Made by a program: the position numbers and the translations under genes | The notes under the pieces: model-generated | Databases searched by the model: none | What the model was told of the DNA's origin: nothing | The model's input: only the letters and a program-made list of their open reading frames with translations | Part shown: piece by piece, positions 20,769 to 34,558 of the stretch | How the letters are laid out: every line of letters begins with the position of its first letter | Position numbering within the stretch: position 1 is the first letter of the stretch | Assembly (NCBI RefSeq): GCF_010993735.1 | Contig: NZ_WQNI01000021.1 | Location: 1-64,000, forward strand | Direction of reading: 5' to 3' | DNA length: 64,000 nt | Source: Chelativorans alearensis | GTDB taxonomy: Bacteria; Pseudomonadota; Alphaproteobacteria; Rhizobiales; Rhizobiaceae

Positions 20769-20915
20769 GTTGTTTCTCTCTTGCCATTGGTCGTGCCACC
20801 GCCGATCCACGTGTGGCTTTGTCGGCTCTGCAAGAGATAGCCACGGTCCGTGAGATGGATTGCTGACAGATTCCAGGGTCATATCAGTCCTGAAACTAGC
20901 TTGGAGGCAGAGCAA

Positions 20916-21986
20916 ATGAGCCAGCCTACGCTCGTCTTGGTTCCTGGCCTCTTGTGCGACAGCTTCGCTTGGCACAAGCAAGCCGAAGTTTTTGACAAGG
21001 ACATGCCAGTCAGCATTGCCGACGTCAGCGCCGGCCTTTCCATTACGGGCATGGCCGAAGACATTTTGTTCAGGCATCCTGGTGCGCTGTGGGTGGCGGG
21101 GCATTCCATGGGTGCACGCATCGCGCTCGAAATGGTGAGATTGTCGCCTGAACGCGTTGCGAAGCTCGCCCTGATCGATACTGGCATTCATCCCCGCCGC
21201 AAGGGCGAGGAGATTAAGCGGCAGGAAATGGTCGATCTCGCCCACAGTGAGGGCATGTCGGCACTGGCGGTGCGCTGGCTCCCGCCCATGGTGGACGAGG
21301 CCCACCATGGCGACCAAGTGCTGATGGGCGGGCTGACGGAGATGGTGCTGCGCGCTAATCCCGAACAGCACGAGCGCCAGATTGAGGCATTGCTCGGGCG
21401 GCCGGACGCCGCGGCCTATCTGGGTACAATCACCTGCCCCGTGCTGCTGGCGGTGGGGCGTTACGACAAGTGGAGCCCGGTCGCGCAACACGAGGAAATG
21501 CTGGCGCTTCTGCCCGATGCGCGTCTGGTGATCATTGAAGACGCCGGCCATTTCGCGCCGCTGGAACAGCCTGAGGCGGTGACCGCGGCCATGGGCATGT
21601 GGATGGCAGGCTGGCAAAAGGAGGACAAGATGCCGGATACGTCGGAGGTCGACAAGCAGGCTCTGCCCGAGACGCCCTTGTTCGATCGCGAGGCTAACCT
21701 CAGGGGCTACCGCATGAACAAGATGGCGATGGATCTTGGCCGTGCGGAGAACCGCGAAGCCTTCAAGGCCGACGAGGACGCCTATCTCGGCCGCTATGGT
21801 CTTTCTGACGAGGAAAAGGCCGCCGTAAAGGCGCGCGACTGGCACGAAATGGTGCGCCTCGGCGGCAATCTGTTCTTCATCCTGAAAATCTCGGCCATCG
21901 ACCCGACGCCCATGTCTCGTATTGGCGCGGCACAGGCCGGCATGGACCACGACGCCTTCTTGGCGCAGCGTTTGGGAAAGGTCTGA
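20916..21986 (+). CDS. Alpha/beta hydrolase fused to LigA (extradiol dioxygenase small subunit)
   Basis: A 356-residue two-domain protein. Residues 1-232 form an alpha/beta hydrolase with the nucleophile Ser64 in AGHSMGA, Asp184 in GRYDKWSP and His212 in AGHFAPLEQP. Residues 253-356 match the alpha subunit of LigAB-type dioxygenases (GYRMNKMAMDLGRAENREAF and RDWHEMVRLGGN). The beta subunit follows 3 bp later. Ring-cleavage and hydrolytic activities are thus physically linked; a meta-cleavage-product hydrolase acting on the dioxygenase product is the simplest reading. ATG 20916 has GGAGG upstream. LigA is normally a separate protein of about 120-140 residues, so the fusion is unusual. Confidence 0.88.
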   Translation: MSQPTLVLVPGLLCDSFAWHKQAEVFDKDMPVSIADVSAGLSITGMAEDILFRHPGALWVAGHSMGARIALEMVRLSPERVAKLALIDTGIHPRRKGEEIKRQEMVDLAHSEGMSALAVRWLPPMVDEAHHGDQVLMGGLTEMVLRANPEQHERQIEALLGRPDAAAYLGTITCPVLLAVGRYDKWSPVAQHEEMLALLPDARLVIIEDAGHFAPLEQPEAVTAAMGMWMAGWQKEDKMPDTSEVDKQALPETPLFDREANLRGYRMNKMAMDLGRAENREAFKADEDAYLGRYGLSDEEKAAVKARDWHEMVRLGGNLFFILKISAIDPTPMSRIGAAQAGMDHDAFLAQRLGKV

Positions 21987-21989
21987 CAA

Positions 21990-22832
21990 ATGGCCAAGAT
22001 CATCGGCGGCGTTGGCACGAGCCACGTCCCCTCCATCGGCGTCGCGCTCGACAGGGGCATGGCGGACACGCCGGACTGGAAGCCGTTTTTTGACGGCTAT
22101 ATTCCTGGCCAAGAGTGGATGAAGCAAGCCAAGCCGGACATCGCGGTGGTGGTCTTCAACGACCACGGCAATTCTTTCTTCCTCGACCGGGTTCCGACCT
22201 TTGCCGTCGGCGTGGCCGAAAGCTACAGGCCCGTCGACGAGGGGTGGGGCCCGCGTTCCATTCCCGAATTTGCGGGCGCAGCGGACCTCTCTTGGCATTT
22301 CGTTGACAAGCTGGTCGAGAGACACTTTGATCCGCTCGTTTGCCGCGAGATCGAGGTCGACCATGGCCTACAGGTCCCGATAGAGTTGTTCTTCGGCCGC
22401 CCGGACAAGTGGCCGGTCAAGGTCGTGCCGATCTGGGTGAACACCATCCAGTACCCGATCCCGACGCCGCTGCGCTGCTGGGAAATGGGCAAGGTGCTGC
22501 GCGAGGCGATCGAGTGCTTCCCGGGCGACGAGCGTGTGGTAATAATGGGTACTGGCGGTCTGTCCCACCAATTGCAGGGTAGCCGCGCGGGCTTCATCAA
22601 CCGTGCAGCAGATGAGGCTTGGCTCGAAGGTATCGCCAACGACTACGAGAAATACCGCGACATGTCGCGGGAGGACTATGTCGAGCAGTTCGGCTCGGAA
22701 GGTGCGGAGTTGATCATGTGGCTCGTCATGCGCGCGGCCATGGATCCGAAGGTCGATTTGAAACACAAGCATTACTATGCGCCGGCTTCGTTGACCGGTG
22801 CCGGCATGGTGGTGCTGGAGAATCGAGCCTAG
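21990..22832 (+). CDS. ligB: LigB-type extradiol dioxygenase, large subunit
   Basis: Class III (LigB-fold) non-haem Fe(II) dioxygenase of 280 residues, related to protocatechuate 4,5-dioxygenase and gallate dioxygenase. Iron ligands and catalytic residues are visible: His12 in GTSHVP, His59 in FNDHGN, and the catalytic His in GTGGLSHQL; the acidic ligand is probably in NRAADEAWLEG. It forms the active site with the LigA domain encoded 3 bp upstream. Which catecholic acid is cleaved (protocatechuate, gallate, 3-O-methylgallate or another) cannot be read from sequence. The next pathway genes (ligC, ligI, ligJ and ligK types) are not in the window. Confidence 0.92.
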   Translation: MAKIIGGVGTSHVPSIGVALDRGMADTPDWKPFFDGYIPGQEWMKQAKPDIAVVVFNDHGNSFFLDRVPTFAVGVAESYRPVDEGWGPRSIPEFAGAADLSWHFVDKLVERHFDPLVCREIEVDHGLQVPIELFFGRPDKWPVKVVPIWVNTIQYPIPTPLRCWEMGKVLREAIECFPGDERVVIMGTGGLSHQLQGSRAGFINRAADEAWLEGIANDYEKYRDMSREDYVEQFGSEGAELIMWLVMRAAMDPKVDLKHKHYYAPASLTGAGMVVLENRA

Positions 22833-22840
22833 GAACGACG

Positions 22841-23259
22841 GTGTATTTCCTGATGATCTGCCGGCACAATCCGGGCTCCCAGGCGGAGAAGAAAGCGCAG
22901 CAAGAACACAGCACCGAGCCTATGTGGCATCGGGCGGCAACAGTGCGGCCAGGGTCCTGACCGGTAGCGCCCTGACCGAGGCGGACGGGGAAACCGATAT
23001 CGGCAATTTCGGCATTTTCGAAGCGGCGGGCGAAGCCGAGCTGCGAGCCGTCCTCCATGCCGATCCGTTTACTATGGCCGACATTGTCGACAGTGTCGAT
23101 ATCGTCCGCTTGCCCGACCGTTTCAGGCGCACCGTATCCAGCCACTGTCAAGCTGAAGGGAGCGATACGAGCTGCTGCCCAGTCTGTGCTTATCGCAGTT
23201 TGCCCGACATGAGACGTACCCATAGAATGCACGCTCCGGAAGTGGGGCAAGCAGGGTGA
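22841..23259 (+). pseudogene. YciI-like protein, frameshifted
   Basis: A GTG at 22841 behind AGGAACG starts YFLMICRHNPGSQ, a YciI-type beginning. The continuation AYVASGGN, DGETDIGNFGIFEAA and AELRAVLHADPF lies in another frame; the switch is near 22907-22914, where about 5 extra bases appear to be inserted. Second-frame reading runs to a TGA at 23257-23259 that overlaps the LysR GTG, with an atypical C-terminal tail. YciI folds resemble muconolactone isomerase and often occur in aromatic operons. Here it is broken or misassembled. Confidence 0.6.
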
Positions 23260-24318: not shown

Positions 24319-25260
24319 ATGATTTCTCGTTTTCTGGCTGTGGCGGCCATCACAGTGGGGCTGTCTGGTGCCGCTTCCGCACAGACGATCTCGATCGGGA
24401 CAAACCCGCAAGGCTCTCTGGCCTATGCGACAGGCGCGGCGGTGTCCAAGGTTGCCATCGAGGAGGGCGGCATTCGGATGCGCGTTGTGCCGCAGGGCGG
24501 GCCGAACGTGGTCGTTCCGCTGGTGAACAATGGAGAACTGGAGTTCTCCATTGCCAATGGTGTTGCCGCCGCCTTTGCATACACAGGCCAGGGTGAGTTC
24601 AGCAGCCCAAACGAAAACATCCGGATGGTCGCGGTATTGTTCGATCTTTACAGCGGCTTCATCGTGCCCAAGGACAGTGACATCCACACCTTGCAGGACC
24701 TTCAGGGCAAGCGGGTTGCGTCCGATTTTCTCACGCAGGTGGCAGTTCAGATCAACGCCGAGGCTACGCTGAACACCGTCGGCATGAGTTATGACGACGT
24801 ACAAAGGGTGCCTGTGCCGGACGGTGTGCGTGGCGTCGAGGACCTGGAGGCGGGCAATGTGGATGCCACGTTCTTCTCCTTGTCATCCGGACGTACCAAG
24901 CAGGCGGATGCGGCTTTGGGTGGCATTCGCATCCTGCCGGTAGAAAAGTCGGAGGAGGCAAACGCCAAGATCGAGGACATATCGCCGGGAGCATGGGTTG
25001 CCGAGGTCAAACCTGGCCCGAATTTTCCCGGCATAACTGAGCCGCAGGGTGCGTACACCACGCCTTTCGTCATTCTCGCCGGCGCAGATGTGCCGGAGGA
25101 GGTGGTCTACAATCTGGTCAAGGCGCTTCACGCCAACAAAAAAGCTCTGGTGGCCGCGAACGGGGCATTCAACGGGTTCGATCCGGGTGCGATGCACACC
25201 GATGTCGGGGTTCCTTTCCACCCCGGCGCAGAACAATTCTACACCGAAGCCGACCTGTGA
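24319..25260 (+). CDS. TAXI-family TRAP solute-binding protein
   Basis: Periplasmic receptor of 313 residues with a signal peptide cut near GAASAQT. The family stamp is IGTNPQGSLAYATGAAVSKV, followed by VVPQGGPNVVVPLVNNGELEFSIANG. Met 24319 with GGGAGGAG upstream is chosen over the longer upstream frame. The fused permease follows at 25421, separated by 160 bp that contain no gene. TAXI-TRAP systems take up small organic acids. The shared operator and the neighbourhood point to an aromatic or sulfated aromatic acid. Confidence 0.9.
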   Translation: MISRFLAVAAITVGLSGAASAQTISIGTNPQGSLAYATGAAVSKVAIEEGGIRMRVVPQGGPNVVVPLVNNGELEFSIANGVAAAFAYTGQGEFSSPNENIRMVAVLFDLYSGFIVPKDSDIHTLQDLQGKRVASDFLTQVAVQINAEATLNTVGMSYDDVQRVPVPDGVRGVEDLEAGNVDATFFSLSSGRTKQADAALGGIRILPVEKSEEANAKIEDISPGAWVAEVKPGPNFPGITEPQGAYTTPFVILAGADVPEEVVYNLVKALHANKKALVAANGAFNGFDPGAMHTDVGVPFHPGAEQFYTEADL

Positions 25261-25420
25261 AACGTTCGGCGTCTGCCGGATAAGAAAACTTCGCGCATCG
25301 GCCCGAAAACTGGCATCTGTTTTCGGAAAGCACGATGCGCAGATTCAAAAGTTTCAGCGTCCTTTGTCCGCCCTGTTGGGAAGCACGGCGCTGCAAGAAT
25401 GCATTCCAGGGAGGAATGAC

Positions 25421-27367
25421 ATGTCCAGGCTCGAAGCTTCAACGGCGGACAGCACAGAACATATCGAGCAAGACAACCCAAAAATTGTTCTGGCCGGCAA
25501 GATCATCGGCTCGGCTCTGGTGCTGCTCTCGCTGGCGAATGCACTCGATCTTTATCGCGCCTTTGGGCTCGTGTTGATCAACGAGCAGTTGCTGGCCGTC
25601 ATCCTTGGTCTGGGGCTTGCGACAGTCTTCATCCTGCAGCCATTCAAGCAGCACACGGCGAAGACGCGTTTGCCCTGGTATGACATCGTGGCGGCGATAC
25701 TGGCGTTCGGCGCCTGCACCTATGTGGCGGTGAATTATGTCGGCATTGTCGCGACCCTGTTTGACAAGCCGTTTAGCTCCGTGGCTGCTGCCACCATCAT
25801 CGTGGTTTCGGTCGCCGAATGCTTGCGGCGCACCGCGGGAACTATGCTCTTTGGCTTCGTTCTGCTCTTCCTGGTCTTCGGCCTCGTTGGGCACCTTGTC
25901 CCTGGGCACTTTCAGGGGCGCCAGGTCGCCATGGACCGGCTGCTGATCTATCTCGGCATGGACTCAAACGGGATTATCGGATTGCCGATCGGCGTAGTGG
26001 TATCGATCGTCGTGCCCTTCATCTTCTTTGGCAACCTGCTCAACGCATCGGGCGGCGCTAACTTCTTCACCGAGATTTCGGCGGCGCTGATGGGCAAATA
26101 TCGCGGTGGGTCCGCCAAGATCGCTATTGTCGCGTCATCTCTGTTCGGCTCGATCTCGGGCAGCGCGGTAGCCAATGTCGTCTCGACCGGCGTGATTACC
26201 ATTCCAATGATGAAAAGGAGCGGCTATCCGCCGGAGCGGGCAGCGGCTATCGAGGCTGTGGCCTCTACGGGTGGCCAACTCATGCCACCGATGATGGGCG
26301 CGGCTGCCTTCCTGATGGCCGAATTCCTGCAGGTGCCGTACACGGATATCATTCTCGCGGCTCTCATCCCGGCGATCCTTTACTACGTGTCGCTGTTTAT
26401 CCAGGCGGACCTATACGCGGCCAAGGAAGACATACGTTCGGTTGACGAGATGAAATACAATGCGCTCGAGGTGCTCTCAAAGGGCTGGCTCTATATTTCG
26501 CCCTTCGTGGTGATCATTGCCGGACTGTTCACCTTGAACCTGCAGCCGCAGACCGCTGCAATGTATGCGATAGGTTTGATCATACCGATTGCGCTGGTAT
26601 TCGGCTATCGCGGCGTGCGTATGCCCTGGACACGGCTTGTCGAGGCGGTTGGCGATACCGGCGTTGCCGTCACCCAGTTGCTCATGGTCTCAGCCATGGC
26701 GGGCGTGGTGATCGGCGTGCTCAATATCACTGGTCTCGGCTTTGCGTTGACCCAGGCGATCATCGAGCTCTCCGGGGGTAACCTCACGGTCATTCTGCTG
26801 CTTTCCGGTGCCATCTCGATCGTATTGGGCATGGGTATGCCCACGGTGGGTGTGTATCTGCTGCTCGCGACACTTGTTGCGCCTTCGATGGTGGAAGCAG
26901 GCGTACCCCCCATCGCAGCGCATATGTTCGCGTTCTATTTCGGCATCCTGTCGATGATTACTCCTCCCGTTGCCGCCGCGGCATTTGCCGGTGCAACGAT
27001 AGCAAAGGCGGATTTCGTCAAAACCGGATTTGCTGCGGTGGTCTTCGGGTGGCCGGCCTATGTGGTGCCTTTCATCTTCGCCTTGTCGCCCGAGATGCTC
27101 TGGCAAGGTACGCCACTGGAGATCGCCAGGATTTTCGTACTCTCTGTTGCCGGCGTGTGGCTCGTTTCGGCAGGCTGGATCGGCTTCTTTGGCGGAACGC
27201 TGAGCGCCGTATGGCGCTTGGCATTCATTCTGGCGGGTGCCGGTTGCTTTGTACCAGGATCTGCCATTCCCGGCGGTCATCTCATCGACTCGGCCGGCAT
27301 CGCAACCGGCATTGCGCTCGTTGCCGCGCGCCTTGTTCTCAGCCGTACAAAGGTGGTCAATGCTTAA
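25421..27367 (+). CDS. TRAP transporter fused permease (TAXI-associated 4TM/12TM)
   Basis: A 648-residue membrane protein in which the small and large TRAP permease subunits are one chain, normal for TAXI systems. The first about 140 residues give four helices. The DctM-like part shows GSISGSAVANVVSTGVITIPMM, EAVASTGGQLMPPMMGAAAFL and GMGMPTVGVYLLLATLVAP. ATG 25421 has GGGAGGAA upstream. Its stop overlaps the sulfatase ATG by 8 bp, tying transport to desulfation. Confidence 0.92.
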   Translation: MSRLEASTADSTEHIEQDNPKIVLAGKIIGSALVLLSLANALDLYRAFGLVLINEQLLAVILGLGLATVFILQPFKQHTAKTRLPWYDIVAAILAFGACTYVAVNYVGIVATLFDKPFSSVAAATIIVVSVAECLRRTAGTMLFGFVLLFLVFGLVGHLVPGHFQGRQVAMDRLLIYLGMDSNGIIGLPIGVVVSIVVPFIFFGNLLNASGGANFFTEISAALMGKYRGGSAKIAIVASSLFGSISGSAVANVVSTGVITIPMMKRSGYPPERAAAIEAVASTGGQLMPPMMGAAAFLMAEFLQVPYTDIILAALIPAILYYVSLFIQADLYAAKEDIRSVDEMKYNALEVLSKGWLYISPFVVIIAGLFTLNLQPQTAAMYAIGLIIPIALVFGYRGVRMPWTRLVEAVGDTGVAVTQLLMVSAMAGVVIGVLNITGLGFALTQAIIELSGGNLTVILLLSGAISIVLGMGMPTVGVYLLLATLVAPSMVEAGVPPIAAHMFAFYFGILSMITPPVAAAAFAGATIAKADFVKTGFAAVVFGWPAYVVPFIFALSPEMLWQGTPLEIARIFVLSVAGVWLVSAGWIGFFGGTLSAVWRLAFILAGAGCFVPGSAIPGGHLIDSAGIATGIALVAARLVLSRTKVVNA

Positions 27368-29012: not shown

Positions 29013-29894
29013 ATGTCTATCAATCGCAAGTCCTACGCCAAAGGCCGCGCAGGTAGCGGAGCTTCATTGAAAGCGGTCCCAAGACTGTCGCGGCGCTTGG
29101 TTTTGACCGGGGCCTCGACGATTGCGGCGGCCACCCTGACGTCCGGCCTGGCAGCTCCTGCCGTCGCCCAGACAAGCCGGAAGACGTTCGTTCTGGTGCA
29201 TGGTGCCTGGCATGGGGGCTGGTGCTGGAAATACGTTCGCGACATCCTCGAGGCGAAGGGACACCGCGTGTACACGCCGACAATGACGGGCCTTGCGGAG
29301 TATTCGCATATGCTCAGTGCGGACGTCGACATGGATACGCACATCCAGGATATCACCAACCTGTTCTGGTGGGAGGACCTCAACGACGTCACCCTCGTTG
29401 CCCATTCTTATGCCGGTTGGGTCTGTTCGGGCGCCCTTGAGAACGTTGAAAAGCAGGTATCCTCGCTGGTCATGGTAGACGCATTTCTTCCGGTGGATGG
29501 GACAAGCGCCTATGACACCAACATACCCCAGCAACAAGCGAAGCTTGACGAGTTGCGTGCAGCAGGCCTCATAGCGAGGCCTCCAATTCCGGCGGAAGCC
29601 TTCAGGGTAAAAACGCAAGCGAATATCGATTGGGTCAACGCCAAGATGACTCCTCAGCCAATGAATGCTGTTTTCACAAAGATCCAACTTACCGGCGCGC
29701 GCGAGCGGATAGGTAAGAAGTTGTTTGTACGGGCTCTCGGCTTTCCGCAGCCTGCGTTCGCCAAGAACTACGAAGACACCAAGGCCGATCCGACCTGGAA
29801 TACCTATGGGGTGCCGGAGGATCAGTCTGGACACGACATTATGGTTGATGCACCTGAACTGCTCTCTAAATTGGTCGAGCAGGCGGCTGCCTAA
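29013..29894 (+). CDS. Tat-exported alpha/beta hydrolase
   Basis: A 293-residue hydrolase with a twin-arginine signal (RLSRRLVLTGAST, cut after PAVAQ). The mature part begins FVLVHGAWHGGWCWKYV, with the nucleophile Ser in VAHSYAGW and the catalytic His in DQSGHDIM near the C-terminus. This HGAWHGGW subgroup includes esterases and hydroxynitrile lyase-like enzymes. A periplasmic esterase beside aromatic uptake genes could release a phenolic acid from an ester. GGGAGGAG precedes the ATG. It is convergent with metF. Confidence 0.85.
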   Translation: MSINRKSYAKGRAGSGASLKAVPRLSRRLVLTGASTIAAATLTSGLAAPAVAQTSRKTFVLVHGAWHGGWCWKYVRDILEAKGHRVYTPTMTGLAEYSHMLSADVDMDTHIQDITNLFWWEDLNDVTLVAHSYAGWVCSGALENVEKQVSSLVMVDAFLPVDGTSAYDTNIPQQQAKLDELRAAGLIARPPIPAEAFRVKTQANIDWVNAKMTPQPMNAVFTKIQLTGARERIGKKLFVRALGFPQPAFAKNYEDTKADPTWNTYGVPEDQSGHDIMVDAPELLSKLVEQAAA

Positions 29895-29907: not shown

Positions 29908-29932
29908 GGGTGGTGCGCATCACGCACCGCCC
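29908..29932. terminator. Bidirectional stem-loop between convergent genes
   Basis: GGGTGGTGCG (29908-29917) pairs with CGCACCGCCC (29923-29932) across a 5-base loop, with one G-T wobble. It lies between the convergent hydrolase and metF 3' ends and overlaps the metF stop, a typical position for a shared terminator. Confidence 0.55.
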
Positions 29933-30828
29933 CCACGCTTGTCATCCCACGTACCCCGCTCGATCAGCCATGCCGCCGTGCCCTTTATCCCGCCGAATGG
30001 AAAGACATGAAGCTGCTGGATCGCCGAAGCGGGATTGGAGCGCGCATAGGCCTCAATAGGCTCTACCACCTCGTCGGGCGAGAAGCCACCCATAAGCGTA
30101 GCAAGGGAGCCGCTGCGCTTTTTGAGGAAGGATACAGAGTTCCCCACGCCGCATATTGCAGCATACTTGACCATTGTCGTCAGTTTGGCCGGACCAGCGA
30201 CCCCGATATGGACGGGCAAATCGATGCCATGCGCCGACAGGCCACCCGCCCATTCGGCGAACTTTCTCCCATCGAAGCCAAACTGTGTCACGATACGCAT
30301 TCGCGCGCCGGTGCGCTCGCCAAAATCCCGCTTGAGTTTGAGTATATCGATGGCTTCTGCCTCGGAGAAATCCGGGCTGCCCTCTGGATGGCCTGCAATG
30401 GCGATGTCGCTGATGCCGTATTTGTCGAACATTCCCGTTTCGAGCAAATCTATCGACCCGGCAAACGGCCCGGCGGGCTTGTCAACTCCCCCGCCTACAA
30501 TGAGAACGTCGCGCACACCGGCCTCCTCGGCCATTGTCCTGACGTGGTTCTCGAAGGCCACGGGATCGAAAATGCGGCGGACGGCGATGTGCGGGACAGG
30601 CTTATAGCCCAGATCGCGCACCCTTCTGGTCGCCATGACCTGCGTAAAACGCTCGTTCTTGCCAATATCGGTGACATAGACCCGGACACCTGGCGGGAAC
30701 AGGCCCGGCAGGTCGGCGAACTCCACGGCTTGTCGGGGCGACATCTCAATGGAGGCTGCGAGCCTGGTCGATCCCGCGTCCCGGTCGACAGTCGGTGTGG
30801 CAGCGTTGGACAGAGAGAATAATGTCAT
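29920..30828 (-). CDS. metF: Methylenetetrahydrofolate reductase family protein
   Basis: A 302-residue FAD-dependent enzyme of the MetF family. Signatures are ASIEMSPRQ near residue 25, [33 protein letters not shown], and IVTQFGFDG for folate and flavin binding. It interconverts 5,10-methylene-THF and 5-methyl-THF; beside a LigM-type O-demethylase it would oxidise the methyl-THF produced. In Sphingobium SYK-6 a metF gene likewise neighbours ligM. The start codon overlaps the frame-corrected purU stop (ATGA), so purU and metF form one operon. Confidence 0.88.
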
Positions 30829-31669
30829 GAGAACACCACCGTCTTGCGCCCGTTGATCAGGACGCGATCTTCAAGGTGCAGCGCCACGGCGCGCGCGAGA
30901 ACGCGACGTTCGATATCCCGTCTCTTTCGGACGAGATCGTCGGCCTATCGGCGTGGGTGACGTGTTCGACGTCCTGCGCGATGATCGGTCCCTCGTCGAG
31001 GTCTGCGGTGACGTAATGTGCCGTCGCGCCGATGGTCTTGACCCCGCGTTCGTGAGCTTGGTGATAGGGCTTCGCACCCTTGAAACCGGGCAGGAACGAA
31101 TGGTGGATGTTGATGCAGCGGCCTGAAAGATAGGCCGAAAACTCATCGGACAGAATTTGCATGTACCGGGCCAGAACGATCAGTTCGGCCCCGGTTTCCT
31201 CGATCACTGCTTTGACCTGACTTTCCTGCTCAAACTTCGTTTCTTTGGTGATTGCGAGGTGATGATATGGAATCGCCATATGCATGGTGACACGGAGCGC
31301 AGAACTGGGATGGTTGGAGACGATGCCGACGCATTCCATGTTCAATTCGCCAATGCGCGTCCGGTAAAGCAGATCGCCCATGCAGTGATCGAATTTGGAT
31401 ACAAGGATCAGAACTGCGCGCTTGCGGCGACTTGGCCGCAATGCCCACTCCAGACCGAAATTGGACACTTCGTTCAAGAAACCGGCCTGGAAGGCGTCGA
31501 CGCCCTGGTTCATCGTAAAGGCGACGCGCATGAAGAAGTTTCCGGTTTCCCGGTCGTCGAATTGCTGCGCCTCGTAAATATCCCCGCCATTCTCTGCAAG
31601 GCGGCCGGCTACGGCGGCGACGATGCCCGCCCGGTTCCTGCACTTCAGGGTCAGAATATATTGCGACAT
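30825..31669 (-). pseudogene. purU: Formyltetrahydrofolate deformylase, frameshifted near the 3' end
   Basis: PurU hydrolyses 10-formyl-THF to formate and THF, closing the C1 disposal route. The ACT-type start (ILTLKCRNRAGIVAAVAGRL) and the catalytic formyl-transfer block (INIHHSFLPGFKGAKPYHQA, then GATAHYVTADLDEGPII) are intact. After EHVTHAD near 30944-30949 a one-base loss shifts the frame, and the shifted product stops at 30857. In the corrected frame the sequence continues [19 protein letters not shown] and ends NGRKTVVFS with a TGA overlapping metF. The break removes only the last about 40 residues; it is either a sequencing error or recent inactivation. Confidence 0.8.
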
Positions 31670-31864: not shown

Positions 31865-33112
31865 CTATATTTTCTCCCCGGGGGCTGAGGACAGAGAATC
31901 GCGCAAAATGCCCGTAAATATTTCTAGGATCTCGCTTGAACTTTCCGTTCGCTTCAGCGTGAGCCCGATCGGGATTTCGGAGTCGGGCAGATCGACATTG
32001 ATCTTCTTGAGACTTGGCGGAAGGTTCGCGATATGCTGATCACTGTAGCTCAGGAGCCCGATCGAGTTGCTGTTGATGATGACTTGCTCCGCGTTGCTGA
32101 ACGACAGGATTTCACACGTCTGGGCGGGAGGGACCGCGCCCACGGACTCGAACAGCCTCCCGAAGTAGGATCGTACCGGTGTACCGTGGGGCGCCACGAT
32201 CCACTTTTCATTCTGCAGGTCGGAAATTGTCAGCAGGCGCGCGTGGCAGGGGTGAGCTTGCCGAGCAACGAGCGTGAAGCGCTCGTTGTAAAGGAAGATT
32301 TCCTCGAGTTCGGGGAAGGGGGTGGGAGAGCGCAGTATCCCGATCATACAATCGAGCTCGCCCCGCCGAAGGGCCTCAGTCAGCATGTTGTAGCTTCCCG
32401 GCACCGCGATCAGGCGCAGATGCGGGTAGCGGTTGGTAAGGTAACCAAAAGCCCGTGCCACCAGATCCTGCCCCGAGAATGGCAGCATGCCGACCGCCAG
32501 CCTTCCGATCAGACCGCGCCTGGGCTCCAAATTGATAGTGTTCAGGGACAGCTCCTGCAATAACTCGCCCCGAAGTGTGGCGAGCCTCCGCGCCTGAGGG
32601 CTCGCTTGCAACCCGCTGCGCCGTCGCTCGAACAACGGCTGCCGGCAATAATCCGAGATGGCCGAGAGTGACCGACTGATGGCTGGTTGGGTCATTCCCA
32701 GATGGACTGAGGCTGCCGATGCGCTCCCGAAACGTATCACCGCCGAAACGGCGTCGAGATGATGCCAGCGCAGGAAGTGCGTCAGATTTGGCCTTGAATT
32801 GCTAATAGCCTCGATGTCCGCTTCTGCCCTCGCAATGAGCTTGAGAGCGGCAGAACATCGCGGCAGGATCGTATCGCCCCAAACGGTCGGCTCGGTACCG
32901 CTCCAGCCCCTTTGAAAGAGCGTTACGCCAAGCAGGTTCTCGGCCGATGCAACCGTCCGAGAGACCACGGGCTGACTCATGTTGAGGACGCGTGAAGCTT
33001 CATCGAACCCTTGCGCTATTGCTACCGCCTCGATCACTCTGGCTTGCTTGAGGCTAAGTCGGCCCTGCATGTTCATGTTCTTGGTATAATCAAAATGGCT
33101 TAGATTATTCAA
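31865..33112 (-). CDS. LysR-family regulator with two tandem DNA-binding domains
   Basis: At 415 residues this is about 110 longer than a normal LysR protein. Two winged-helix domains stand in series: residues about 18-80 (IEAVAIAQGFDEASRVLNMS, then QPVVSRTVASAENLLGV) and about 113-175 (LDAVSAVIRFGSASAASVHL, then TQPAISRSLSAISDYCRQPL). A single ligand-binding domain follows (GRLAVGMLPFSGQDLVARAF onward). Such an arrangement could bind extended or paired half-sites. It is divergent from the O-demethylase gene across 72 bp, so it probably regulates that gene and perhaps itself. Confidence 0.85.
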   Translation of the reverse strand: MNNLSHFDYTKNMNMQGRLSLKQARVIEAVAIAQGFDEASRVLNMSQPVVSRTVASAENLLGVTLFQRGWSGTEPTVWGDTILPRCSAALKLIARAEADIEAISNSRPNLTHFLRWHHLDAVSAVIRFGSASAASVHLGMTQPAISRSLSAISDYCRQPLFERRRSGLQASPQARRLATLRGELLQELSLNTINLEPRRGLIGRLAVGMLPFSGQDLVARAFGYLTNRYPHLRLIAVPGSYNMLTEALRRGELDCMIGILRSPTPFPELEEIFLYNERFTLVARQAHPCHARLLTISDLQNEKWIVAPHGTPVRSYFGRLFESVGAVPPAQTCEILSFSNAEQVIINSNSIGLLSYSDQHIANLPPSLKKINVDLPDSEIPIGLTLKRTESSSEILEIFTGILRDSLSSAPGEKI

Positions 33113-33184: not shown

Positions 33185-34558
33185 ATGGCCGACAAGAACC
33201 TGCAAGAGAAAATCGATCGGATTGGCAATCCATCACATATGTTGCAGAATTCGCCGGTGGGGCCGTACGTGTTTCCCATTGCGCCGCAATATACAAACTG
33301 GATGGAGGAGGTGCGCGCATGGCGCCATGGCGCAGTACTGCTTAATCAATCCTATCACATGACCGATTTGTACGTGCGGGGCCCAGATGCCATCAAGTTC
33401 ATGTCCTATGTCGGCGTCAACAGCTTCGCTAATTTCGGCCGCGATAAAGCCAAGCAGTTGGTCTGCGTCAACCATGACGGTTACGTCATAGGCGACGGCA
33501 TCATATTCGGTCTCGAAGATGATGAAATCCTCTATGTCGGGCGCCCGCCTCTCGCGCACTGGATGAAGTTTCAAGCCGAGATCGGCGACTTTGATGTCGA
33601 GACCGAGCTGGACATCCGGTCAGTCGAAAACCCCGACAAGCCCCGCAGGCTCTACCGCTACGAGGTGCAGGGGCCACTTGCGCTCGACATCCTCAACGAG
33701 GTCAATGAGGGCGGTCCGCTGACCACCAAGTTTTTCAACATGGGAGAAATCACCATAGCGGGCTGCAAGGCGCGGACACTGAGTCACGGCATGGGTGGCG
33801 CGAAAGGTCTGGAACTGTGGGGGCCATACGAAGACGGAACGAAGGTTTATGACCGCCTGCTCGAAGTCGGGGAAAAGTATGGCCTGCTTCGTGCCGGCGC
33901 GCGGTCCTATTCGTGCGCGGCCATGGAATCTGGATGGATTCCATCTCCATTGCCGGCCATCTATTCGGGCGAAAAGATGCGTCCCTACCGCGAATGGTTG
34001 CCGGCCAACGGTTTTGAAGCCACCTGCTCGGTCGGAGGAAGTTTCCAGCCCGATAATGTCGAGGACTTCTACCTCACGCCATGGGATCTCGACTACGGGC
34101 GGGTGGTGAAGTTCGACCACGACTTCATCGGGCGCGAGGCGCTTGAGAAGATGGAAGGCGAAGTGCATCGCACCAAGGTGACGCTTGTTTGGAGCAAGGA
34201 AGATGTCCTCAAGATTTTTGCCGGCATGATGGAGGAGTTTCCCGGTCCCAAGCTGATGGAACTGCCTGCTGGCCACTATGCGGCGCATCCTTATGATCAG
34301 GTCTTGTTGGACAACGAACTGGTGGGTTTGTCGACCTACCCGGTGTATTCGGCCAACGAGCGGGCGTGGATCTCCCTCGCCATGGTGCGCGGCGCTCTGG
34401 CCGAACGGGGAACGAGACTTTCCGTCCTTTGGGGTGAGGCTGATGGCGGCACGAAGAAGCCGCATGTCGAAAGGCACTGTCAGATGGAGGTGGGGGCCGA
34501 GGTATACCCGTGGCCGATTCATGAGGCTGCACGGGTCGAATATCGGGCGCAGCGCTGA
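33185..34558 (+). CDS. THF-dependent aromatic O-demethylase, LigM/DesA type
   Basis: A 457-residue GcvT-fold enzyme that transfers the methyl group of a methoxy-aromatic acid to THF, giving the catechol and 5-methyl-THF. It parallels LigM of Sphingobium SYK-6 along its length: VFPIAPQYTNWMEEV, HMTDLYVRGPDAIKFMS, VIGDGIIFGLEDDEILYVGR, LESGWIPSPLPAIYSGEK-like SGWIPSPLPAIYSG, REWLPANGFEA and VKFDHDFIGREAL. GGGAGGACGGG precedes the ATG. The nearby metF and purU can oxidise and release the C1 unit, and hydrolase-LigA/LigB can cleave the ring. Substrate choice (vanillate, syringate or 3-O-methylgallate) is not resolvable. Confidence 0.9.
   Translation: MADKNLQEKIDRIGNPSHMLQNSPVGPYVFPIAPQYTNWMEEVRAWRHGAVLLNQSYHMTDLYVRGPDAIKFMSYVGVNSFANFGRDKAKQLVCVNHDGYVIGDGIIFGLEDDEILYVGRPPLAHWMKFQAEIGDFDVETELDIRSVENPDKPRRLYRYEVQGPLALDILNEVNEGGPLTTKFFNMGEITIAGCKARTLSHGMGGAKGLELWGPYEDGTKVYDRLLEVGEKYGLLRAGARSYSCAAMESGWIPSPLPAIYSGEKMRPYREWLPANGFEATCSVGGSFQPDNVEDFYLTPWDLDYGRVVKFDHDFIGREALEKMEGEVHRTKVTLVWSKEDVLKIFAGMMEEFPGPKLMELPAGHYAAHPYDQVLLDNELVGLSTYPVYSANERAWISLAMVRGALAERGTRLSVLWGEADGGTKKPHVERHCQMEVGAEVYPWPIHEAARVEYRAQR

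Follow-up and report, generated by a model that had tools for sequence, protein, structure and literature searches.

In Chelativorans alearensis (assembly GCF_010993735.1), an alpha/beta hydrolase and LigA, the alpha subunit of a class III extradiol dioxygenase, are encoded in a single reading frame, followed at once by the gene of the catalytic subunit LigB. The stretch analysed, called here the window, comprises positions 1–64,000 of contig NZ_WQNI01000021.1, and all coordinates are in its numbering. Judged from sequence and from published analogues, the locus is probably a ring-opening/ester-hydrolysis pair for 3-O-methylgallate, joined in one frame here and independently fused elsewhere. 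More tentatively, the product may be a bifunctional 3-O-methylgallate ring-opening esterase, joined at least twice so that a short-lived ester is cut before it becomes the pyrone PDC; by making both fused and plain alpha subunits, the Chelativorans gene might then set the share of dioxygenase sites that bear an esterase. Every part belongs to a known family, and a parallel to the pathway has been published. In searches of the open-licence literature, subscription papers being outside their scope, no description was found of the hydrolase–LigA fusion, of its repeated origin or of the nested start that would give two forms of the alpha subunit.

The fused gene and its nested start

The fused open reading frame (20916–21986, + strand) encodes 356 amino acids and runs without interruption from an ATG at 20916 to a stop at 21984–21986; an in-frame GTG also occurs at 20850. 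Its first part is an alpha/beta hydrolase domain (20916–21614, + strand) of carboxylesterase/PcaD-like fold with the triad S64-D184-H212. Here Pfam matches Abhydrolase_1 (E 2.4e-13) and Abhydrolase_6 (E 2.1e-10) over ∼230 residues (20916–21623). A linker (21615–21662, + strand) leads to LigA (21630–21986, + strand), where PF07746 is matched over the last ∼105 residues (21630–21983) from profile position 1 to 86 of 87 (E 1.8e-29). LigB (21990–22832, + strand) starts 3 bp past the stop of the fused gene and matches PF02900 at 21990–22829 (E 3.1e-53). The original prediction of one chain carrying a complete hydrolase and a full LigA, with LigB 3 bp on, is thus borne out by the open frame and the separate Pfam matches. 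By the searches made, these are the sole LigA and the sole LigB of the 5.70 Mb genome. In the AlphaFold2 model of the fusion, the predicted local distance difference test (pLDDT) score of the hydrolase domain is 85–96 in every block of 10 residues except one (71); the LigA part and the linker are modelled with low confidence, with pLDDT <50 at residues 235–275.

Chelativorans salis (L006, 91% identity) and Chelativorans xinjiangense (L007, 90%) share this open frame, and a separate group of genomes, described below, carries a fused gene of its own. A sequencing or assembly error is therefore rejected as the source of the fusion. Among the three Chelativorans genes, at dS values of 0.17–0.45, dN/dS is 0.14–0.18 in the hydrolase and 0.04–0.10 in LigA, and the linker shows no insertions or deletions.

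The junction contains a predicted internal ribosome site and start for LigA, AAGGAGG-ACAAG-ATG (21618–21632, + strand), which lies within the fused frame and was not part of the original prediction. Its pairing energy with the anti-Shine–Dalgarno sequence is −11.8 kcal/mol, a value equalled at none of 273 internal in-frame ATGs from 21 other genes of the window. For the pattern AAGGAGGN{4,8}ATG, the window contains 4 matches where 0.58 would be expected. The site is identical in C. salis and C. xinjiangense and has homologues in four unfused relatives (L012, L013, L015 and L016). In these four, AAGGAGG lies in the last hydrolase codons, 6 nt upstream of a LigA ATG that is in another frame; in the three fused genes it lies 5 nt upstream, and the ATG is in the hydrolase frame. 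More broadly, in 9 of the 11 unfused loci aligned at the junction the LigA ATG overlaps the end of the hydrolase gene or lies within 3 nt of it; L008, L014 and L056 have no overlap. On the simplest reading of these alignments, the Chelativorans-type fusion came about when the spacing from ribosome site to start changed by a net one base. Because the internal ribosome site stays strong, the window's gene probably gives two products, the fusion and a free LigA. Conservation of the site at silent positions was considered as a sign of selection and proved uninformative, as 38 of 50 comparable two-fold hydrolase codons are equally unchanged.

Fused and separate genes across genomes

The gene order hydrolase–LigA–LigB was found at 24 loci after removal of duplicates. 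The two parts are fused at seven of them (the window, L006, L007, L094–L096 and the contig-cut L097) and are separate genes at the other 17 (L008–L016, L056, L057 and L098–L103). In L056, from a genome of the same genus (G001), hydrolase and LigA are two genes with 16 bp between them. Within the genus, the fusion is present in 3 of 16 genomes, that of the window included, and a genome survey gave three fused cases among 121 genomes. At the level of the order (397 genomes, again with the window's), at least four full-length fusions and one contig-cut case were seen; at the level of the class (385 genomes), the window's genome was the only fused match found. These last two surveys took no more than five candidates from each genome into account and give lower bounds. 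The genome survey proposed with the original prediction recovered the same open frame in the two nearest relatives and, beyond what had been predicted, relatives with separate genes and the second fused group. That prediction had also named two genes with an intervening stop in other isolates as evidence against a real fusion; such an arrangement is seen at the 17 unfused loci, whereas neither the two nearest relatives nor the second group show it.

The second group comprises three complete loci (L094–L096) from one genus in another family of the same order, together with L097. The hydrolases of L094–L096 are 56–57% identical to that of the window. The parts are joined more tightly, with a different junction and no dedicated internal ribosome site. 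The interval from hydrolase residue 211 to the NKM motif of LigA contains a single in-frame GTG, with pairing of −4.9 (L094), +0.4 (L095) and +0.4 (L096), and a further ATG at residue 210 has pairing of −5.9, −5.9 and −3.0, respectively. Free LigA is less likely here than in the window type, but some may be made, since these operons also contain genuine starts that pair no better (−5.5 for LigB and −4.9 for the hydrolase of C. xinjiangense).

In a joint tree of hydrolase, LigA and LigB, the window's group belongs to a set of 16 loci with full support, 13 of them unfused, and none of the other fused loci is part of this set. A tree constrained to unite all fused loci in one clade is rejected by the approximately unbiased (AU) test on the joined data (P = 7e-43), on LigB alone (P = 0.0007) and on the hydrolase alone (P = 0.0008), so a single origin of all fused genes is rejected. 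For a shared origin of L097 with L094–L096, the AU test gives P = 0.081. Since the trees reject one fused clade, the fusion seems to have arisen at least twice independently. Because it recurred, a working partnership of the two enzymes is better supported than it would be by a single case, even though overlapping neighbours may become fused by chance as well. As a separate observation, the window and Ahrensia (L011) share 87% identity in LigB but only 54% in the hydrolase; C. salis and C. xinjiangense aside, the nearest hydrolase is that of G001 (62%). Hydrolase and LigB thus seem to have had different histories.

A rather unlikely alternative, though the strongest of those considered, is that the fusion in the window's lineage is neutral read-through produced by a small net insertion or deletion (one base in the simplest alignment), in which case a LigA translated separately, from its own start, would do the work in the dioxygenase, and the tail on the hydrolase would be passive. 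The change in spacing from 6 nt off frame to 5 nt in frame, the unmatched strength of the internal site and the predominance of unfused genes are what this would predict. The linker, on the other hand, has stayed free of insertions and deletions among the three fused genes despite their divergence at silent sites, though selection on LigA would itself keep the frame; and fusion has also taken place in a second lineage, which lacks a dedicated internal site, though a separate LigA may come from its weak candidate starts.

Substrate, reaction and pathway

LigB is a class III (LigB-type) extradiol dioxygenase subunit. Besides PF02900, it matches the curated model NF009901 at 367.8 bits (cut-off 290), its best match in the PDB is 1b4u_B and its ligand set is conserved. 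Residues H12, H59, H125 and H193 are present in 28 of 28 sequences, and E240 and S267 in all 27 rows that reach those positions; H12, H59 and E240 we take, by SYK-6 LigB numbering, to be the iron ligands, with H193 as the catalytic His. LigA stays below the cut-off of the protocatechuate 4,5-dioxygenase alpha-subunit model TIGR02792 (81.9 bits against 108.6). At the position of F103 in the LigA of Sphingobium sp. SYK-6, the window has Met, and the 28 LigA sequences compared have Met (14), Ile (12), Leu (1) or Val (1). In SYK-6, F103 is reported to set C5 selectivity, and mutants at this position raised gallate and 3-O-methylgallate turnover (PMC10094722). The original prediction of a substrate unlike those of the classical protocatechuate and gallate routes holds to the extent that the main substrate is probably not classical protocatechuate.

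The hydrolase triad, recognized in the original prediction, is invariant in all 23 hydrolases compared. The closest solved folds are those of a Thermogutta esterase, a feruloyl esterase and PcaD, an enol-lactonase; no BphD-type C–C hydrolase is named among the 50 fold matches listed. PcaD-type enol-lactonases are the best family matches, yet the scores lie far below the cut-offs (67.2 bits against 255.85 for TIGR02427 and 88.8 against 390 for the PcaDC model). The BphD-type model TIGR03343 gives 25.9 bits against 462.15. The C–C or ester hydrolase first proposed likely acts on the ring-cleavage product, and of the two reactions ester hydrolysis is favoured.

Genes nearby in related genomes suggest what is opened and what is cut. 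Of the other 23 loci that have this gene order, 12 have an O-demethylase within reach: DesA-like at nine (L008, L012–L016, L056, L098 and L099) and VanA-like at three (L095, with VanA_C at E 1e-44, and L094 and L096 by inspection). The run in L056 begins with a DesA-like gene (cut by the end of the stretch), a methylenetetrahydrofolate-reductase-like gene, a full-length purU (above its cut-off), a DUF1932 gene and three genes for tripartite ATP-independent periplasmic (TRAP) uptake (by inspection). It continues with the hydrolase, LigA, LigB, a YciI-like gene, a catechol 2,3-dioxygenase, a PIG-L gene, LigK and a 4-oxalomesaconate tautomerase; the dioxygenase, LigK and the tautomerase all score above curated cut-offs. 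In L095, a VanA-like oxygenase, a reductase and a GntR regulator stand beside the fused gene, tautomerase and LigK are above their cut-offs, and the PIG-L gene is 55% identical to the GalB-type one of L056. Because L056 has LigB, tautomerase, LigK and GalB-type PIG-L in one run, the standard 4-oxalomesaconate route is indicated. Hydrolase, LigA/LigB, O-demethylase and 4-oxalomesaconate genes form one cluster in L056 and L095 and are spread over several contigs in the window's genome. The latter has two LigK genes and a 4-oxalomesaconate tautomerase above curated cut-offs, as well as a LigI-like amidohydrolase. Another of its contigs (L055) carries tautomerase, PIG-L, LigK and catechol 2,3-dioxygenase, with 83% (tautomerase) and 87% (PIG-L) identity to L056. 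The usual next-step genes, said by the original prediction to be absent nearby, were indeed not seen around the fused gene (LigC was not searched for), but standard lower-pathway genes exist elsewhere in the genome and are clustered in relatives, so that the different lower pathway deduced from their absence nearby finds no support. In a further locus (L106), a related hydrolase lies near a LigM-type demethylase above its cut-off, with no LigAB in the 10.9 kb examined.

Two LigAB enzymes are described as opening 3-O-methylgallate to CHMOD, which cyclizes spontaneously to PDC (PMC8091115). In the syringate route reported for Pseudomonas sp. NGC7, VanA1B1, MgaAB, MgaC and MgaD act before GalD, GalB and GalC; MgaC is an alpha/beta hydrolase, MgaD a pfam13577 protein, CHMOD has a half-life of ∼70 min, and an mgaC mutant converts syringate to PDC almost one to one (PMC12314914). 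Together, the gene neighbours, this NGC7 parallel, the gene set of the pPDL2 cluster (see below) and the replacement of F103 point to 3-O-methylgallate as substrate of the dioxygenase and to its methyl ester product as substrate of the hydrolase. An O-demethylase would convert syringate to 3-O-methylgallate; LigA–LigB would open the ring of the latter; the methyl ester so formed, CHMOD, is unstable and cyclizes to PDC if left uncut; the attached hydrolase would cut this ester, releasing methanol and CHMA; and GalD/GalB/GalC-type genes would lead from CHMA through 4-oxalomesaconate to pyruvate and oxaloacetate. The fusion would keep an esterase on each complex that has a fused alpha subunit. 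In the window type, the retained internal start would probably also supply free LigA, so that fused and plain alpha subunits would share the pool of LigB.

It is much less probable that the hydrolase opens PDC itself, a lactone, in place of LigI. The match to PcaD-type enol-lactonases, with the PcaD fold among the top matches, and the lack of an amidohydrolase among the genes inspected in L056 and L095 would suit such an activity. However, the substrate inferred for MgaC, the one analogue tested, is the ester, with PDC as a dead end (PMC12314914). Moreover, a LigI-like amidohydrolase is encoded in the genome of the window, and the Roseomonas cluster combines this kind of hydrolase with an amidohydrolase 45% identical to that LigI-like one. 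Similarly improbable is a route from protocatechuate or another catechol, in which a C–C hydrolase would act on a ring-opened semialdehyde or ketone. The best PDB match of LigB is indeed the SYK-6 protocatechuate 4,5-dioxygenase, a catechol 2,3-dioxygenase gene stands in some of the same clusters, and activity on protocatechuate and catechol is reported for the LigBA beside a related hydrolase on pPDL2 (PMC3516476). The low BphD score argues against C–C hydrolysis, as do the clustered downstream genes, which act on 4-oxalomesaconate, not a product of C–C hydrolysis; the O-demethylase neighbours and the loss of Phe103 point instead to methoxylated substrates. The mimosine/3-hydroxy-4-pyridone route, in which PydA/PydB pair a meta-cleavage dioxygenase with a hydrolase, is set aside, since the O-demethylase and 4-oxalomesaconate neighbours point elsewhere and a literature search gave nothing bearing on the locus.

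Several observations weigh against the 3-O-methylgallate ring-opening/ester-hydrolysis pair or against the benefit of joining it. The DesA-like gene of the window lies ∼10 kb from the fusion in another gene run and scores below both curated demethylase cut-offs. No O-demethylase was found at 11 of the 23 other loci, including C. salis and C. xinjiangense, some of the stretches examined being short. Some clusters contain a catechol 2,3-dioxygenase (TIGR03211 above cut-off) for which the route has no need, and the LigBA of pPDL2 has the reported activities given above. The actinobacterial loci L017–L020 have DesA-like, LigA and LigB genes and no such hydrolase in the 12 kb examined. Conversely, hydrolases of the same family occur without LigAB in the stretches examined in L024–L026, L028 and L104, so the family may have other roles. 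Most loci (17 of 24) do without the fusion. Hydrolase, LigA and LigB modelled as one chain reach a predicted TM score (pTM) of only 0.47; with so poor a model, geometry gives no support to the direct hand-over between active sites that the original prediction suggested. Lastly, parts of the window's copy may be decaying, because its YciI-like gene is frameshifted and its PurU looks truncated.

The YciI-like gene of the operon (22841–23155, + strand) survives here as a remnant and is intact in C. salis and C. xinjiangense; relative to these its frame is broken by a 2-base and a 1-base length difference. Further downstream lie TRAP-type uptake genes (24319–27367, + strand), encoding a TAXI-like binding protein (24319–25260, PF16868) and a permease (25421–27367, by inspection). 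A methylenetetrahydrofolate-reductase-like gene (29920–30828, − strand; TIGR00676, E 3.4e-7, far below cut-off), presumably for one-carbon disposal, is 33% identical to that of L056. It adjoins a PurU-like formyltetrahydrofolate deformylase (30857–31669, − strand), which scores above the cut-off of NF004684 and is matched only to position 248 of 286, after which other residues follow. Its C-terminus has seemingly been lost, and the one-carbon branch of the window is possibly decaying. A LysR-type regulator (31865–33112) has two PF00126 stretches, a tandem helix-turn-helix. Genes of similar size (∼403–415 amino acids, the window's included), assigned to LysR by inspection, occur in L054 (5607–6851), L055 (9437–10648) and L056 (1908–3155), where they adjoin 4-oxalomesaconate genes. 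The tetrahydrofolate-dependent O-demethylase of DesA/LigM kind (33185–34558, + strand) is 49% identical to that of L056 and scores 574.6 bits with NF047633 (cut-off 800) and 537.7 with NF047885 (cut-off 580), so neither the DesA nor the LigM assignment is reached. Genome G000 has five DesA/LigM-type paralogues (C1:180958-184913, C1:315053, C34:135903, C14:33185), two of which are divergent neighbours near a second LigK cluster.

Elsewhere, catechol 2,3-dioxygenase genes recur with a LigAB-type enzyme or its lower-pathway genes (L056, 5682–6647, L055, 5737–6705, and L095, 11907–12857, all three above the TIGR03211 cut-off; L109, 5696–6688, by annotation). In Nonomuraea and Herbidospora (L017–L020), LigA and LigB are of the same family, with neither this hydrolase nor YciI in the stretch examined; L017 has a different alpha/beta hydrolase, which resembles that encoded at 29013–29894 of the window.

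If the favoured assignment holds, it places an orphan-looking fusion at one particular step in the breakdown of syringyl lignin and predicts which unnamed hydrolases are esterases of ring-cleavage products. The recurrent fusion of the hydrolase–LigA pair hints that both enzymes work jointly, and with both fused and unfused pairs at hand in relatives, channelling can be put to a direct test. As PDC is a wanted polymer building block (PMC10233912), an enzyme that suppresses its formation, or whose knock-out promotes it, would have practical value.

Comparison with known systems

The nearest functional parallel is MgaAB–MgaC(–MgaD) of NGC7, in which an alpha/beta hydrolase is likewise genetically tied to LigA/LigB, an O-demethylase and 4-oxalomesaconate genes (PMC12314914). 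Compared by description and gene content, the two systems differ in that MgaC is encoded by a separate gene. MgaAB is also nearer to gallate dioxygenase (47% and 41% identity to the parts of GalA; PMC12314914), whereas the LigAB of the window is of another lineage. Unlike the Mga system, window-type loci have a YciI-like gene after LigB, and its product is a candidate for the isomerase role of MgaD. DesC and DesD, named as CHMOD methylesterases in the same report, would catalyse the same proposed reaction and, compared by description, are encoded by separate genes (PMC12314914).

Hydrolases close in sequence accompany LigA and LigB in the pPDL2 cluster of Sphingobium fuliginis (L110, 49.8% identity) and in a plasmid cluster of Roseomonas mucosa (L109, 54.4%). 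Both are unfused, with other gene orders and distant LigA/LigB (33–43% identity). On pPDL2, the hydrolase sits with a SnoaL_4 gene (PF13577), LigB and LigA, the gene kinds of mgaC, mgaD, mgaB and mgaA.

The LigAB of Sphingobium sp. SYK-6 (PDB 1b4u) is, like that of the window, a two-subunit class III extradiol dioxygenase with the iron ligands kept; identity amounts to 120 of 279 aligned columns in LigB and 39 of 100 in LigA. It differs in having no hydrolase domain and in its Phe103, replaced by Met in the window and by Met, Ile, Leu or Val in the family. Natural LigA fusions are already represented by the gallate dioxygenases DesB/GalA and by single-chain LigA–LigB proteins, in which one chain matches both parts (3wku, PRK13372). 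In these, LigA is joined to LigB, whereas in the window its partner is a hydrolase.

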